Program-made: the position numbers and the translations under genes
Notes under the pieces: model-generated
The model's input: the letters and a program-made list of their open reading frames with translations, nothing else
Database searches by the model: none
Told to the model about the DNA's origin: nothing
Shown here: piece by piece, positions 32,487 through 37,652 of the stretch
Layout of the letters: every line of letters begins with the position of its first letter
How positions within the stretch are numbered: the first letter of the stretch is position 1
Assembly: GCA_016183815.1 (NCBI GenBank)
Contig: JACPDW010000011.1
Coordinates: 1-56,411 of the forward strand
Source of the DNA: Flavobacteriia bacterium
Lineage (GTDB): Bacteria; Bacteroidota; Bacteroidia; Flavobacteriales_D; Crocinitomicaceae
Reading direction: 5' to 3'
Length of the DNA: 56,411 nucleotides

Positions 32487-33956
32487 TTATGAAAATTTAC
32501 GAGTTGCCTTTATGAAATGGTAAATAAAAAATCCATTTATAAATCTCATAAAGCAACTTATAAAAATGGAAAGGTCTGTCCAATGTTTTGGTAAAGTAAA
32601 AACAGGATTTAACCACAAAAAAAATTCTTTTAAGCCTTTTAGAAAGTCATTTGAGCAATTGGTATTAATACCACAATGGTTATATACTTCAATATTCCAA
32701 ATAACTAAGCAAAAAATGAAATGAATTTTCAAGAGTAAACATAAGGGTCGTAGATAACTTTGACCAAAATCAGATACCCATTTATTAATCCAAATCAATA
32801 TTCTGTTTTCTTTTGTTTCTGTTTTTGTTAATTTAAACTCCTTCCAATATAATAACATTTCATTTCTATAAAATGCCAACTCTTCAATCTTATTGTTTGT
32901 TGATTTATATGCAGATTTTATTTGTCTAAAGGTATCTCGTTGGTACTTTATTTCAAGTAAATCTTTTTGCTTTTTATCAAAAACAGTATCGGGTGTAAGT
33001 ATTCTGTTTTTAAGCCAAGTAACATTATTTGGTTTAAGACCAGACAAATCACTAGCCTTAATAATTAATTCCTTCTTAAAAATAACTTGATTCAAATAAA
33101 AATTTGAAATAATAACATTATTTAAAGAAGTAGTGCAAATTTCAATATTATTAAATCTAACATTTCCATTAACACAGGTTAAATCTTTAAAATCTAACTT
33201 TTTGATTTTAGAATTCTGCAAGATTAATTGACCTTCAAAAATTCTATTTGTATAAGTTAGAGATTCAATATTTGACAAAACATCAGATTTGTTTCCAATC
33301 GATATGACTTTAAATAATTCCCCAAAAATAGTAACCACCTTATAATCTCCAATTAATCTTGCTGTGCCAATATTATCAAGATAAATTATGTCAATATTAT
33401 TATGAGAATTAATATCTAAAAATTTTAAATCTGGGTTATCTCCGAAATCAATTCTAGATATTTTATTCTGCATTAAAGAATTTATTTGAAATCTATCTGC
33501 TTTAATTTCCCAAAATTTTGCATTGTGAATTATATTTTCATTTAAACAAATATAACTAGCTTTAATGCGGTCAAATGCTAAATAACTTTTTACGGTGCAA
33601 TTAGTAAAATTTAGAGTTTCAATTTCAGAATTCGCAACAAAAGTGTCAAGTTCAAAAGAACAAAGCCTAAAATCAACTTGTATACAACTAATGTTTGTTA
33701 AAATAACTTTTATTTTAAATGAACAATTGTGAAAAATAATTGGTACTCTTTCTAATAAAACTATATTTGAAAGAATAACAGATCCATTAAAACAACAATT
33801 ATGAAACTCAATATTACGATTTGTAATTTCAGAAAATATATCTTTTTCATCTATGATTACATCAAAGTAGACATCAATGTTTTTAACATTAGAATTTGTA
33901 TTTATTAGTTCTATCAGCGGTTCTTGATGAAATAATTCCTGTCGTTCGTCTTTCAT
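32487..33956 (-). CDS. Beta-helix (pentapeptide-like) protein with C-terminal membrane segments, linked to the restriction gene
   Basis: This 489-residue protein has an N-terminal half (about 40-300) of repeated short strands with recurring Asn/Cys/Phe positions ('IEFHNCCFNGSVILSN', 'IIFHNCSFKIKVILTN', 'LDFKDLTCVNGNVRFNN'), like a degenerate pentapeptide beta-helix. A charged helical linker ('FRQIKSAYKSTNNKIEELAF', about 340-360) leads to hydrophobic segments near 405-425, 437-455 and 460-485. Related Bacteroidota proteins share the linker and membrane part. It starts 2 bp after the restriction-methyltransferase stop, so the two are one operon. Function is unknown; a membrane effector or accessory defence role is inference. 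Confidence 0.7.
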   Translation of the reverse strand: MKDERQELFHQEPLIELINTNSNVKNIDVYFDVIIDEKDIFSEITNRNIEFHNCCFNGSVILSNIVLLERVPIIFHNCSFKIKVILTNISCIQVDFRLCSFELDTFVANSEIETLNFTNCTVKSYLAFDRIKASYICLNENIIHNAKFWEIKADRFQINSLMQNKISRIDFGDNPDLKFLDINSHNNIDIIYLDNIGTARLIGDYKVVTIFGELFKVISIGNKSDVLSNIESLTYTNRIFEGQLILQNSKIKKLDFKDLTCVNGNVRFNNIEICTTSLNNVIISNFYLNQVIFKKELIIKASDLSGLKPNNVTWLKNRILTPDTVFDKKQKDLLEIKYQRDTFRQIKSAYKSTNNKIEELAFYRNEMLLYWKEFKLTKTETKENRILIWINKWVSDFGQSYLRPLCLLLKIHFIFCLVIWNIEVYNHCGINTNCSNDFLKGLKEFFLWLNPVFTLPKHWTDLSIFISCFMRFINGFFIYHFIKATRKFS

Positions 33957-33958
33957 GT

Positions 33959-36900
33959 TTACTCCCCCTCCACAATTTTAATTTCCTCCTCTGTCAATTC
34001 ATACAATTTATAAACCATTTGGTCAATTTCTTTGTCGGCTTTGTCGATTTCTGCCTTGAGGTCTAAGGCTTTCTTTTTGTTTTCCTCGAATAAATCCATC
34101 CATTCAAACTCATCTTTTTTGGTAAGTGCTGCACCACCAACAGTTTTAATACTTTTATTTAGTTCTTTGATGAAATCGGTAAATTCTAATTCGTACCATT
34201 TTTCTAATTTTCCAGATAGTTTTTCTATGTTGTATTGGGATGAGAAATATTTAGAAAATTTTTGTGAAATTGATTGCAAATCCTTGTTTAAAGTGAGCAT
34301 GAGATCCGCTTTTTCGATGAAAGGGATTTGATTAGTTGTTTTATTGTATTTAATTGGTAAATTCTTGCAATTTGCAATTAATATCTTTTGAAACAATTCT
34401 TTTTCAAGATCTATAAATCTGAATTTGTGATAAAAATTTAATAATTTTGAATTTAGAAGACAAAGGAGGAATTTTGTTTTTAATTCCTTGGTAATAATTC
34501 CAAATCCGATTTGAGTAAAATATAATGCCTCATTGGTATAACCTGCATATATTCTTGGTGGATTACCTGAAACGATTTGTCTTACTATAATTCTTTCATT
34601 TTTAAAGAATCTTTCATTTCGAGCAGCCCCCAGCCAATCACCATATTTGATAAATTCCTTGATTTCATTAGTAACTTGATATCTAGTTATATTTTCGCCA
34701 GTAATTAAAGGTTTGTATGTGTCGTCAATTTTTATATCAGCATGAAATTCTCTATTTTTTATTGTTTCTTCTGAATGACCCTTATATTTGTCATAGGGTG
34801 TTATGCCAAGACAGAAGTCCGCATAATCTGATAGACGTTTGTTGTTTTTTTCAATTTTAGATAGTACTTTTTGTTGAGAGACAGAAATAAAGATATTAAA
34901 ATTACAATCATCACTTTTAGACCAACTACTTTTATCAAAAATACTTATTCTAGAATTATCCACAAAAGTTATTTTTTCACTTTTAGGATAAACTATAGCT
35001 TCTAATGTTGGACAATTTAATTTTTTTTGGAATTGGAAAATGATAGTTTCCACTGTTGCATCCTCGAACACATCATCAGGAAGTTTAATTATTTTAGTCA
35101 TATCAGAAATTAACATTTTTCTGATTTTAGTATATGAAGAATTTATTAATATAGAATTAGGATTAATAAATGATAAAATACCATTGTTTTTTGTTATTTG
35201 ATAACCTTTTTCTATAAAAATTGAATACAAATTAATCCGATTTTCTGCAGTTGTATATTTTGCAAAAAGCTCCCTTACTAAATTGTTATCTAAACCTTTT
35301 ATATCTACATAAGGCGGATTACCAATAATTACATCAAAACCTCCTTTAAATTGTGTTTTTAAACATTCTTCTCTTGTCTTTATAAAGGTGTTGATTATAC
35401 CTTTAAGTTTAGGGTTGCTGGGTAATTTGTGTTTTACTTTGTTGTCTTCGATGTAGTTGAAAGTATTCCAAAATTGATCGTCGGAAGTAATAGGTTTGCA
35501 ATAATATTTTTGTGTCCAAAATGGTGTTGAACCATCTTTGAGTACAGTAGTACTGCCAAGGGGATTAATCCCCTTGACGGAATTAATTATTCTTGCAGTT
35601 CGTCCTTTTATTTTTTGCATTATTTTTGGCACTTCCTCTTCTTCACAAACCAACAAAATATGCATATGATCCCAGCATAAATTAAACGCAGCAATATTTA
35701 AATTGTCCTCTTTCACTATTTCTGCTACGGTTTGAGCAATCAATTCTTCTTCCTCTTTAGTCATTGGAAAGACCTCTGCTTCTGGCTTTGTCCCTCCAAA
35801 TCTACGTTCACGTGCTTTGTAGGTAATCATACGATTAGAAGTCCGACTATCATGCAAACATGTTGTTATATGATAAGCAAATTTATTTTTCTCTTTAAAG
35901 ATTTCAGGAAATTCTTTTTCCCACGAAAAAGCTTTATCACCAGCAACTGCAGGGTCATCAATTAATGAATTACCACATTTGATGTTGTTGTTTAAGGAAT
36001 TGAGTTTTCTGCCTTTTTGAGCAGTTCGCAACCACAAAGAAAGTTTGGCTATTTCAACCGATTCATCGTTTAAGTCAACACCGTAAATGTTGTTTTCCAA
36101 GATGTGTAATTCTGCACCAGGGAAACCAATGGTTGTGCCAAAAAGTTGGCTTTGTAGGTCGTCAATCTGTTTGTGTTCTTGAATTAGAAATTCCAAAGCT
36201 TGGTTTAAAAAGGCACCCGAACCACAAGCTGGGTCGCAAATAGTGATTTGTAATAACCACTCTCGATAATCTTGTAAAGATTTATCAAGTTTTTGTATGG
36301 TTGTTTTATTACGGTTTTTACGACCTTTTGCAAATTCTTCATCTATAATTTCTAACTCAGCTTTCTTTTCCTCACACAATTTGCCAATAGTACTTTCCAC
36401 AATGTATTTAGTGATGTATTTTGGTGTATAAAAAACTCCGTCTTTTTTGCGTTTGGTTTTGGTTTTGTCAATTGTATTTCCTTCAATTTCGGATTTGATT
36501 TCATCTATTTCATTTAATGAATTTTCGAAAATGTGTCCTAAAATATTAACATCGACATCACTTTCAAAATCATAATCACTTAAAATAATAGAATGTTTGT
36601 GTAAAATATCGTCATCAATCACTACATTATCGAGAACCTCATCTGGTTGAAACAATCCTCCATTATAGGCGAAAATTTCAAATTCTGCTGTAATCGCATC
36701 GCCTGTCTTTTTGCCAAAAGCGGGTAAAGTAACTGTTGCTCCAATGTTTAAATCTTCAAAATACATTTTGTATCTGTCGTACAATGAAACAGGGATACGT
36801 GCTTTTTTAAGATTTTCCCATTCTAAATTTATTCGTCTGATAAGGTTTGTAGGAACTAATTGTCTGTCTTCAGCAAAGAAAATGAATAAAAATCTGTCTA

Positions 36901-37594
36901 ATAATTTTTGCGTTTTTTTAAATAAAAGTAGTTTATCTTTTTCAGGATTTTTTTCTATTAAATTGTTGTATAATGCTTTTTTAAAATCTGAATAATCCTT
37001 GTATAATTTTTTTGTGATTTGGTTTTCTTTGGAAACAGATTCGTCTTTTAAATGTTTGGGAATGTTGCCTTTAATATTTTCATAAGCTAGACAACAATAC
37101 AATAAATCAAACTCTTCTCGTTGGAGCTTAAATAAATTAAACTCTATAAAATCTACAGCATTTTCTATATAAAAACGAATTTTTTCAAAGTTAGAAGTAA
37201 TGACATAAACACATTCGGGTTGATTGTTTTTATAAGCAAATGCTTGATTTTCAATTCTATTTAAATCACTTGTATCAGTACCCTTTAATTCAATAACGAC
37301 TTTGATTTTTCCGTCAATTAAAATCGCTCCATCTGCTTTTTTAGAATTGTTTTGGTTTTTTTGCTCAGTTAAAAGATTAAAATTTACATCTGGATTAATT
37401 GTATAGCCCAAAACATTTACGAATAATTCTCTTAAAAATCCTTCTTGATATTGTTCTTCCTTACTGTTTCGAATATTTGTTTGTTTTTCTTTATTATGGA
37501 AAATAATTGAAAAATCATTCCACTTTTGTTCCAAGTTATTTTTGTCTAAAGAATTTATATGTTTTGTTATAACAGATTGTTGGAATAATGCCAT
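33959..37594 (-). CDS. Type IIG restriction-methyltransferase with an embedded REP-associated transposase domain
   Basis: The preferred start is the ATG at 37594 ('MALFQQSVITKHINSLD'), giving 1211 residues. The nuclease domain shows 'KKADGAIL' (Asp 88) and 'VVIELKG' (Glu 102, Lys 104), a PD-(D/E)xK site. The N6-adenine methylase follows: 'DPACGSGAF' (motif I, about 454-462) and 'VIIGNPPYVD' (motif IV, NPPY 759-762). A C-terminal specificity region (about 900-1150) and a coiled-coil tail complete it. Such single-chain enzymes (Eco57I type) both cut and methylate. Oddly, about 572-745 is a REP-associated tyrosine transposase domain placed between motifs I and IV in frame. A TAnnTTTG promoter precedes the gene and a membrane protein follows. 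The catalytic motifs look intact. Confidence 0.88.
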   Translation of the reverse strand: MALFQQSVITKHINSLDKNNLEQKWNDFSIIFHNKEKQTNIRNSKEEQYQEGFLRELFVNVLGYTINPDVNFNLLTEQKNQNNSKKADGAILIDGKIKVVIELKGTDTSDLNRIENQAFAYKNNQPECVYVITSNFEKIRFYIENAVDFIEFNLFKLQREEFDLLYCCLAYENIKGNIPKHLKDESVSKENQITKKLYKDYSDFKKALYNNLIEKNPEKDKLLLFKKTQKLLDRFLFIFFAEDRQLVPTNLIRRINLEWENLKKARIPVSLYDRYKMYFEDLNIGATVTLPAFGKKTGDAITAEFEIFAYNGGLFQPDEVLDNVVIDDDILHKHSIILSDYDFESDVDVNILGHIFENSLNEIDEIKSEIEGNTIDKTKTKRKKDGVFYTPKYITKYIVESTIGKLCEEKKAELEIIDEEFAKGRKNRNKTTIQKLDKSLQDYREWLLQITICDPACGSGAFLNQALEFLIQEHKQIDDLQSQLFGTTIGFPGAELHILENNIYGVDLNDESVEIAKLSLWLRTAQKGRKLNSLNNNIKCGNSLIDDPAVAGDKAFSWEKEFPEIFKEKNKFAYHITTCLHDSRTSNRMITYKARERRFGGTKPEAEVFPMTKEEEELIAQTVAEIVKEDNLNIAAFNLCWDHMHILLVCEEEEVPKIMQKIKGRTARIINSVKGINPLGSTTVLKDGSTPFWTQKYYCKPITSDDQFWNTFNYIEDNKVKHKLPSNPKLKGIINTFIKTREECLKTQFKGGFDVIIGNPPYVDIKGLDNNLVRELFAKYTTAENRINLYSIFIEKGYQITKNNGILSFINPNSILINSSYTKIRKMLISDMTKIIKLPDDVFEDATVETIIFQFQKKLNCPTLEAIVYPKSEKITFVDNSRISIFDKSSWSKSDDCNFNIFISVSQQKVLSKIEKNNKRLSDYADFCLGITPYDKYKGHSEETIKNREFHADIKIDDTYKPLITGENITRYQVTNEIKEFIKYGDWLGAARNERFFKNERIIVRQIVSGNPPRIYAGYTNEALYFTQIGFGIITKELKTKFLLCLLNSKLLNFYHKFRFIDLEKELFQKILIANCKNLPIKYNKTTNQIPFIEKADLMLTLNKDLQSISQKFSKYFSSQYNIEKLSGKLEKWYELEFTDFIKELNKSIKTVGGAALTKKDEFEWMDLFEENKKKALDLKAEIDKADKEIDQMVYKLYELTEEEIKIVEGE
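35370..35881 (-). mobile_element. REP-associated tyrosine transposase (Y1/HUH) domain inside the methylase
   Basis: Residues about 572-745 of the restriction-methyltransferase match the TnpA-REP (RAYT) group. 'YHITTCLHDSRTSNR' opens it, the metal-binding 'WDHMHILL' (His 643, His 645) gives the HUH motif, 'FWTQKYYCKPI' (Tyr 697/698) is the candidate nucleophile and 'YIEDNKVKHKL' closes it. It has no start or stop of its own, so it is a fused domain, not a separate gene. Standalone RAYTs process REP palindromes as single strands. Whether this copy is active is unknown. Confidence 0.75.
35557..35576. repeat. Perfect 20-bp palindrome inside the transposase domain
   Basis: CAAGGGGATTAATCCCCTTG is its own reverse complement and encodes 'KGINPLG' between the HUH and Tyr motifs. 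A second, imperfect palindrome (AGTAC-AGT-AGTACT, 35541-35554) is adjacent. RAYT proteins act on palindromes, so the placement is striking, but codons for this peptide could give it by chance. Confidence 0.55.
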
Positions 37595-37619: not shown

Positions 37620-37652
37620 CAAATATACATTAAATAGGTCAATTACATACAA
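37620..37652 (-). promoter_or_regulatory. Promoter of the restriction-methyltransferase operon
   Basis: TTG (37652-37650) and TATATTTG (37627-37620) on the minus strand are 22 nt apart, and the -7 box lies 25 nt before the ATG at 37594. This supports the shorter start. No controller-protein box or C gene was seen. Confidence 0.5.

Follow-up and report, generated by a model that had tools for sequence, protein, structure and literature searches.

The closest described relatives of the element reported here are the REP-associated tyrosine transposases (RAYT, or TnpA_REP), which together with flanking repetitive extragenic palindromic (REP) sequences make up the 'REPtron' (E. coli, 4ER8). In E. 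coli, TnpA_REP binds REP hairpins in single-stranded DNA and uses a tyrosine to cut and rejoin the strand next to them (PMC8266576). For TnpA_REP subclass 2.4, sections of PMC6006769 place REPs in frame within the transposase genes themselves, generally between HuH and Y, report the subclass as abundant in Bacteroidetes and Cyanobacteria, and give its motifs as NH[IFV]H, YIxNNP and GT[AG]G feet. The window analysed here (the whole stretch of 56,411 nucleotides of contig JACPDW010000011.1 from a Flavobacteriia bacterium, 30% G+C) carries a HUH/Y1 transposase domain of this kind in frame within a Type IIG restriction-methyltransferase gene (positions 33959–37594, minus strand). Our preferred reading, held at slightly short of even confidence, is that a RAYT/TnpA_REP-like Y1 transposase and its cognate palindromic hairpin reside in Type IIG restriction genes, are maintained intact by selection, and have moved between alleles. 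If this is true, REP/RAYT hairpin elements and restriction enzymes, which are usually handled separately, become joined, and a route is provided by which a transposase domain spreads as an unspliced part of another enzyme.

The insert shares with TnpA_REP/RAYT the HUH motif and single tyrosine, the predicted fold, and a palindrome in or beside the gene. It differs in sitting inside a Type IIG enzyme, in its tyrosine motif (YIxxNRxKH vs. YIxxNP-like), in palindromes that mostly lack the GT[AG]G foot, and in dispersed palindrome copies that are few in most of the filled (insert-bearing) genomes checked. As in subclass 2.4, the palindrome of the window (amino acids ~673–680) lies in frame between H645 and Y714; unlike subclass 2.4, the insert has DHxH and a YIxxNRxKH-like motif, not NH[IFV]H and YIxNNP. 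The word 'restriction' is absent from the text of PMC6006769, one section of which states that unexpectedly long proteins, fusions among them, were discarded from the survey; this may be part of why fusions of this type had escaped description. Intragenic in-frame REPs and Rickettsia palindromic elements in protein genes are described in parts of PMC3733652, whereas the palindromes here cluster in a single gene family, one that itself codes for a REP-type transposase domain. With Type IIG enzymes (Eco57I/MmeI-like, PDLC03609) the protein shares the full-length profile, motifs I and IV and a TaqI_C-like domain, and differs from them by the transposase domain between I and IV. Searches of open-access PMC papers turned up no restriction enzyme described as carrying a REP transposase or Y1 domain, and other reports or protein-database entries are possible. 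The components are of known kinds; it is their nesting for which those searches gave no printed report.

The fused gene and the state of the inserted domain

The gene encodes 1211 amino acids from an ATG at 37594 to a stop that ends at 33959; one listing of open reading frames starts it instead at a TTG at 37642. Pfam matched the protein to Eco57I (4.8e-38), MmeI_Mtase (5.1e-15) and TaqI_C (8.3e-15), with MmeI_N below threshold (19.2 vs. 27 bits), and the PADLOC Type IIG profile PDLC03609 matched it over its full length (1.5e-258). By profile, the product is thus a putative Type IIG restriction-methyltransferase, its nuclease part being recognized solely through the PADLOC profile. All of the following features are on the minus strand. 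The methylase sequence DPACGSGAFL, which we take to be motif I, occupies amino acids 454–463 (36206–36235), and NPPY, presumably motif IV, amino acids 759–762 (35309–35320). Between them lies the insert (amino acids ~568–750, 35345–35893), the edges of which are approximate and were set from insert-less homologues that read from EFPxVFxx directly into GGFDVVIGNPPY. The Pfam Y1_Tnp match covers amino acids 611–718 (35441–35764; 1e-11, 45.4 bits vs. a cut-off of 23), with the HUH motif H643-M-H645 at 35660–35668 and the presumed catalytic tyrosine Y714, in NYIEDNKVKH, at 35453–35455. The NCBIfam family REP_Tyr_transpos was matched at 3.8e-14 and 52.8 bits, below its cut-off of 80. The TaqI_C-like specificity domain follows at amino acids 961–1081 (34352–34714). 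The original prediction, that a full HUH/Tyr Y1 domain lies in frame between methylase motifs I and IV while the nuclease, motif I, NPPY and specificity parts remain, is confirmed by these matches and motif positions. It placed the insert correctly within the gene, without narrowing the domain to its approximate limits and without mention of the palindrome at 35557–35576.

The fusion recurred. A match to the insert domain was obtained in 19 of 395 phylum genomes, in six of which it was fused (G000, G020, G026, G046, G054 and G196). A scan of genome contigs with an alignment of five inserts yielded 37 loci, some of which are the same genes as those of the G-numbered genomes. At 34 of the 37, the domain is in frame within the same Type IIG family and at the same site, between GNSLIDD...EFPxVF and GGFDVVIGNPPY; the other three (L049, L053 and L058) are stand-alone genes. 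Fused hosts are titled Bacteroidota, Balneolota, Chlorobiota and Ignavibacteriota, and no relative was found in one scan of viral contigs. In L025, L027, L043 and L059 a break in the host frame lies outside the insert; in L052 the break falls in the palindrome-bearing loop of the insert and leaves two open reading frames. Any of these breaks may be an assembly error; that of L052 could also be a real switch. One genome, G399, holds two fused copies of differing sequence (C219, C74; L179, L190).

Of the 35 fused copies (the 34 and the window), 31 were aligned; L046, L050, L052 and L054 were omitted as cut or broken. Along the site segment the aligned copies are 33–71% identical to the window, and the residues D-H-x-H, W, Y, N and K-H were invariant in all 31, with a YIxxNRxKH-like tyrosine motif. 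Each of the 31 site segments matched both Y1_Tnp and Eco57I in Pfam, and no splicing family was matched in any of them. An assembly accident is therefore excluded by the shared site of the 34 loci and the paired matches of the 31 copies. One pattern of the 37-locus scan includes the DH of HUH, which biases HUH conservation in that sample; hosts were therefore also sampled with the N-terminal 566 amino acids as query, which are free of any insert sequence. Among 395 genomes of the phylum, 23 had a host, and among 395 of the class, 20; with three common to both samples, this gives 40 in total. The insert was present in eight (G000, G020, G026, G046, G054, G196, G571 and G718; the matched N part of G196 contains one stop codon), and all eight copies keep DHxH and Tyr, which removes the bias. 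Domain-less homologues are thus the rule, one of a pair of findings that the original prediction had named as telling against it; the other, unconserved His and Tyr residues, is contradicted in both samples.

Insert dN/dS (the ratio of nonsynonymous to synonymous change) was 0.06–0.27 in eight pairs and saturated in a ninth, and host dN/dS was 0.03–0.11 in the six measurable pairs. The insert is under purifying selection. A structural model of the domain had a mean predicted local distance difference test score (pLDDT) of 85.4. The palindrome-coded peptide (model residues 133–140, block mean 72) starts a poorly predicted loop, and the next residues of that loop, 140–148, are the only stretch below 50. 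The PDB structures nearest to the model were IS608 TnpA (Z = 11.3) and 4er8, which is E. coli TnpA_REP with a REP hairpin (Z = 11.2), followed by an unrelated fold at 8.3; the insert thus has the predicted fold, together with the catalytic residues, of TnpA_REP and IS608 TnpA. A model of methylase plus insert had a predicted template modelling score (pTM) of 0.50, so we made no use of where it sets the domain relative to the methylase.

These results bear on whether the domain is merely carried. Genes lacking the domain are in some cases empty at the site (e.g. EFPSVFENGGFDVVIGNPPY), and others hold a different linker there (L137, L140, L142 and L154) or, in L149, the repeat-like peptide SLRGTKQS; the site was unreadable, through a contig end or an absent motif, in e.g. 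L133, L145, L150 and L152. Such tolerance, and the patchy presence of the domain, bear out the suggestion of the original prediction that this is a mobile domain in a tolerant loop. The tolerance would also suit a passive relic, a transposase domain that landed there and is carried without function. The notion that it is merely 'parked' does not survive, and a passive relic is very improbable and largely refuted: the catalytic residues are invariant even at 33% identity over the site segment, and dN/dS is far below 1. The same invariance and low dN/dS, and the lack of any decayed copy among those read, would be expected of a domesticated accessory activity, in which the HUH domain nicks or holds the single-stranded or hairpin DNA of an invader during restriction and the palindromes are side products. 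That the host is, by profile, a restriction enzyme also speaks for it. The original prediction had offered two related readings, a new DNA-processing activity of the restriction enzyme and a single-strand nicking step in defence, either of which may hold. We nevertheless regard a domesticated accessory activity as rather unlikely: the family manages without the domain in all but eight of the 40 host-bearing genomes, the domain is scattered patchily over the host tree, and the link to palindromes is left unexplained.

Palindromes in the insert and elsewhere

GC-rich perfect palindromes were defined by arms of at least 8 nucleotides, a loop of at most 6, and at least 4 G+C per arm. The sole such palindrome in the window is the 20-bp CAAGGGGATTAATCCCCTTG (35557–35576), which lies in the insert between HUH and Tyr, is read as VKGINPLG, and is the presumed cognate REP-like hairpin. 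A search of the genome of the window gave this single exact copy and, at up to 2 mismatches, one further imperfect site; a dispersed REP family in that genome was therefore ruled out. Across the 34 fused loci, 49 such palindromes were counted in 25.2 kb of site segments vs. 55 in the remaining 273.5 kb, where the remainder includes further copies in the same genes and the insert segment of L046 includes its N part.

Filled and empty genes were compared in the 56 genes with a readable site. Palindromes of the strict CAA[GT]GG type were present in the site (up to NPPY) in 26 of 31 filled vs. 0 of 25 empty genes (P = 2.7e-11); for GC-rich perfect palindromes of any type, the counts were 31 of 31 vs. 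3 of 25. Outside this set stood L130–L132, L142, L145, L147, L150, L152, L153, L156–L158 and the five fused genes that are cut or broken; among these, L147 is filled and has palindromes, and L156 is empty and carries a CAAGGG palindrome in its N part, its genome having a filled gene as well. For 39 CAA[GT]G palindromes in inserts, the centre was in codon phase 0 in 21, phase 2 in 18 and phase 1 in none. The same palindrome DNA is read as NKGxxPLV or as TRxHxPLS, and L034 and L037 have an identical palindrome, one in each frame. The conserved thing is therefore the nucleic acid, not the peptide. The hairpin is stable both as DNA (−11.9 kcal/mol, z = −5.1) and as RNA (−22, z = −4.95), and the palindromes are probably the cognate REP hairpin of the inserted domain.

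Stability as RNA as well as DNA would also suit autoregulation, in which binding of the domain to the hairpin, in the gene itself or in its mRNA, would hold down the level of a restriction enzyme that could be toxic. The window palindrome being the sole exact copy in its genome fits this, as does the confinement of the motif CAAGGG-N8-CCCTTG: it was present in all 18 filled genomes checked (of the 34 fused loci), and in 13 of them every copy lay within the fetched restriction locus. We consider autoregulation quite unlikely. It offers no obvious need for a conserved Tyr, the number, frame and place of the palindromes vary, and those in inserts lie ~1.8–2.4 kb into full-length genes.

The other five filled genomes had 15, 7, 47, 3 and 11 copies (G399, G400, G402, G404 and G412, respectively). 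We read 20 stretches that contain dispersed copies. Of the 17 from G402, 2 had the motif inside an open reading frame of >250 amino acids, 4 at the edge of frames of 207–216 amino acids, and 11 among short frames only. In G399, all three were in long frames, one of them the second fused gene. Also in G399, two related genes (L177 and L178), both with ...DIVSGDFYW...DCTGHGVPGAFMS, carry the palindrome in frame and at roughly matching positions. Across the phylum sample, 72 of 395 genomes have the motif, many with irregular, chance-like centres.

Two of the stand-alone relatives resemble the TnpA_REP/RAYT arrangement: L049 has palindrome copies just 3' of the gene, and L058, which is cut by the contig end, has one before the gene and one inside it. 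L053, with its upstream side cut off, has none. Of 37 loci (2.0–3.4 kb) with more distant Y1 genes, none had CAAGGG arms and two had looser CAAGG matches; neither the other Y1 gene in the genome of the window (L002) nor L187 has such a palindrome.

History of the insert and how it may have spread

A quick host tree was built from the N parts of 33 filled and 14 empty genes (L046, L059, L131, L132 and the class-sample genes L137–L158 were left out). The filled/empty label changes 11 times on this tree, at least 10 of the changes being forced by supported branches, compared with a mean of 12.3 for shuffled labels (a count as low for the filled label arose in 126 of 500 shuffles). The presence of the insert is patchy on the host tree. 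Insert and host trees were weakly correlated (Mantel rho = 0.35, 30 rows, 0 of 999 permutations as high), and in approximately unbiased (AU) tests with 29 taxa the insert data rejected the host topology (P = 3.1e-8) and the host data rejected the insert topology (P = 1.8e-5). For example, the L047 insert clusters with those of L041 and the window, its host being distant, and the L032 insert clusters with that of L051, its host with L027. This conflict indicates that the insert has a history of its own.

The two flanks of the insert in filled L024 can be aligned with empty L113 at 76% and 79% identity, which makes these genes a clean presence/absence pair. IS200/IS605 elements are free-standing with end hairpins outside the gene; the insert does not fit this description, being in-frame and domain-sized at the junctions compared. 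Filled pairs were ranked by host distance, as picking by low insert divergence would be biased. In the four host-closest pairs, the proportion of synonymous differences (pS) in far-host DNA and insert, respectively, was 0.28/0.44, 0.44/0.10, 0.60/0.32 and 0.62/0.56; in the three closest empty pairs, divergence near the site was higher, not lower.

Under our preferred reading, we infer cleavage by the domain, action in cis, a contribution to its spread, and neutrality for restriction. The domain would bind and nick the folded palindrome in single-stranded DNA; the products would be those described for TnpA_REP, a 5'-phosphotyrosine and a free 3'-OH. By analogy, the substrate of the insert should be its own palindrome while the gene is in single-stranded form, e.g. 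on the lagging strand, and such action in cis would seed more palindromes in the same gene, which would account for extra copies such as the four of L031. The domain may further aid the movement of its coding segment between restriction-gene alleles through recombination over the shared flanks. The host would tolerate the insert at its site, a linker before motif IV that also takes other inserts, and lateral spread of the restriction host would carry the insert along. The locus offers a defined protein, a defined hairpin and a natural plus/minus pair (L113 and L024).

A more active version of this movement is possible, though we think it doubtful: the insert could be a new kind of homing-like element, in which a HUH domain, unspliced, occupies one fixed loop of a restriction enzyme, has the hairpin within its own coding sequence, and nicks there to copy itself into empty alleles. 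Inteins and homing endonucleases occupy one site in one host gene, are patchily distributed, place a nuclease-like domain inside a host protein, and show tree conflict. The insert shares their site fixity, patchiness, nuclease-like domain within a host protein, and tree conflict; unlike them, it has no splicing domain that was found, is expected to use HUH/Tyr chemistry, and showed no decayed copies.

The movement may also have owed nothing to the domain. In plain lateral exchange, frequent recombination of restriction genes moves the domain, which has no role in its own spread and is kept for some function, an account that overlaps the other alternatives. In its favor, DNA similarity breaks off directly after NPPY in close filled pairs and likewise in close empty ones (e.g. 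L126/L127 and L113/L120; L113/L116 is alignable throughout), and the divergence hint for separate movement is weak. The same shared end point made it unneeded to suppose that the insert drives exchange of the specificity half, and that idea was dropped. Set against plain exchange are the clean, domain-only presence/absence of L113 vs. L024 and the invariant cis palindromes, which require a second explanation; we judge it rather unlikely.

Several points weigh against the preferred reading of a selected transposase domain moved between alleles with its hairpin. Recombination of gene segments alone, with the domain uninvolved, could cause the tree conflict, and empty genes, too, show exchange of the region beyond NPPY. 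That the insert is younger than the surrounding host DNA is suggestive only, a weak hint: its divergence was clearly lower in two of the four pairs, slightly lower in one and higher in one (L038/L039), and most pairs were saturated. No target duplication was visible at the junctions compared, and no palindrome scar at the empty sites looked at. Insert dN/dS exceeded that of the host in four of six comparable pairs. Selfish homing elements usually leave decayed copies, none was seen among the inserts read, and a selected function fits their absence equally well. The five filled genes without the strict palindrome have variants (L024, L025, L026 and L045) or an unrelated palindrome (L060/L011), and GT[AG]G lies within 8 nucleotides of the hairpin foot in only 5 of 53 palindromes. 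G087, G283 and G306 have 43, 52 and 24 motif copies, respectively, with only distant Y1 genes found, and the motif is therefore not exclusive to this Y1 subfamily. Movement of its own gene is also not known for TnpA_REP.

Neighboring gene and related observations

Two bp downstream of the restriction gene lies a gene at 32487–33956 (minus strand), whose product has a hydrophobic C-terminal segment, a weak match to the Hailong effector HalA (3.5e-6, 26.5 vs. 250 bits) and a sub-threshold pentapeptide match. It was considered as a partner and rejected: tblastn against the loci available for comparison returned the sequence of the window itself (L003) and otherwise only matches with E-values of 0.33 and 0.73.

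In-frame palindromes of another type were seen in domain-less restriction genes (L128, at amino acid ~430; L145 and L155, at amino acids ~96–101), and the restriction family seems prone to in-frame repeats. At L014 (G260), a different Y1 transposase occurs in one open reading frame with an apparent HsdR N-terminal part, flanked by the repeated peptide GGFSNP[PS]NYPNGGQECPPSF; this is perhaps another transposase inside a restriction gene.

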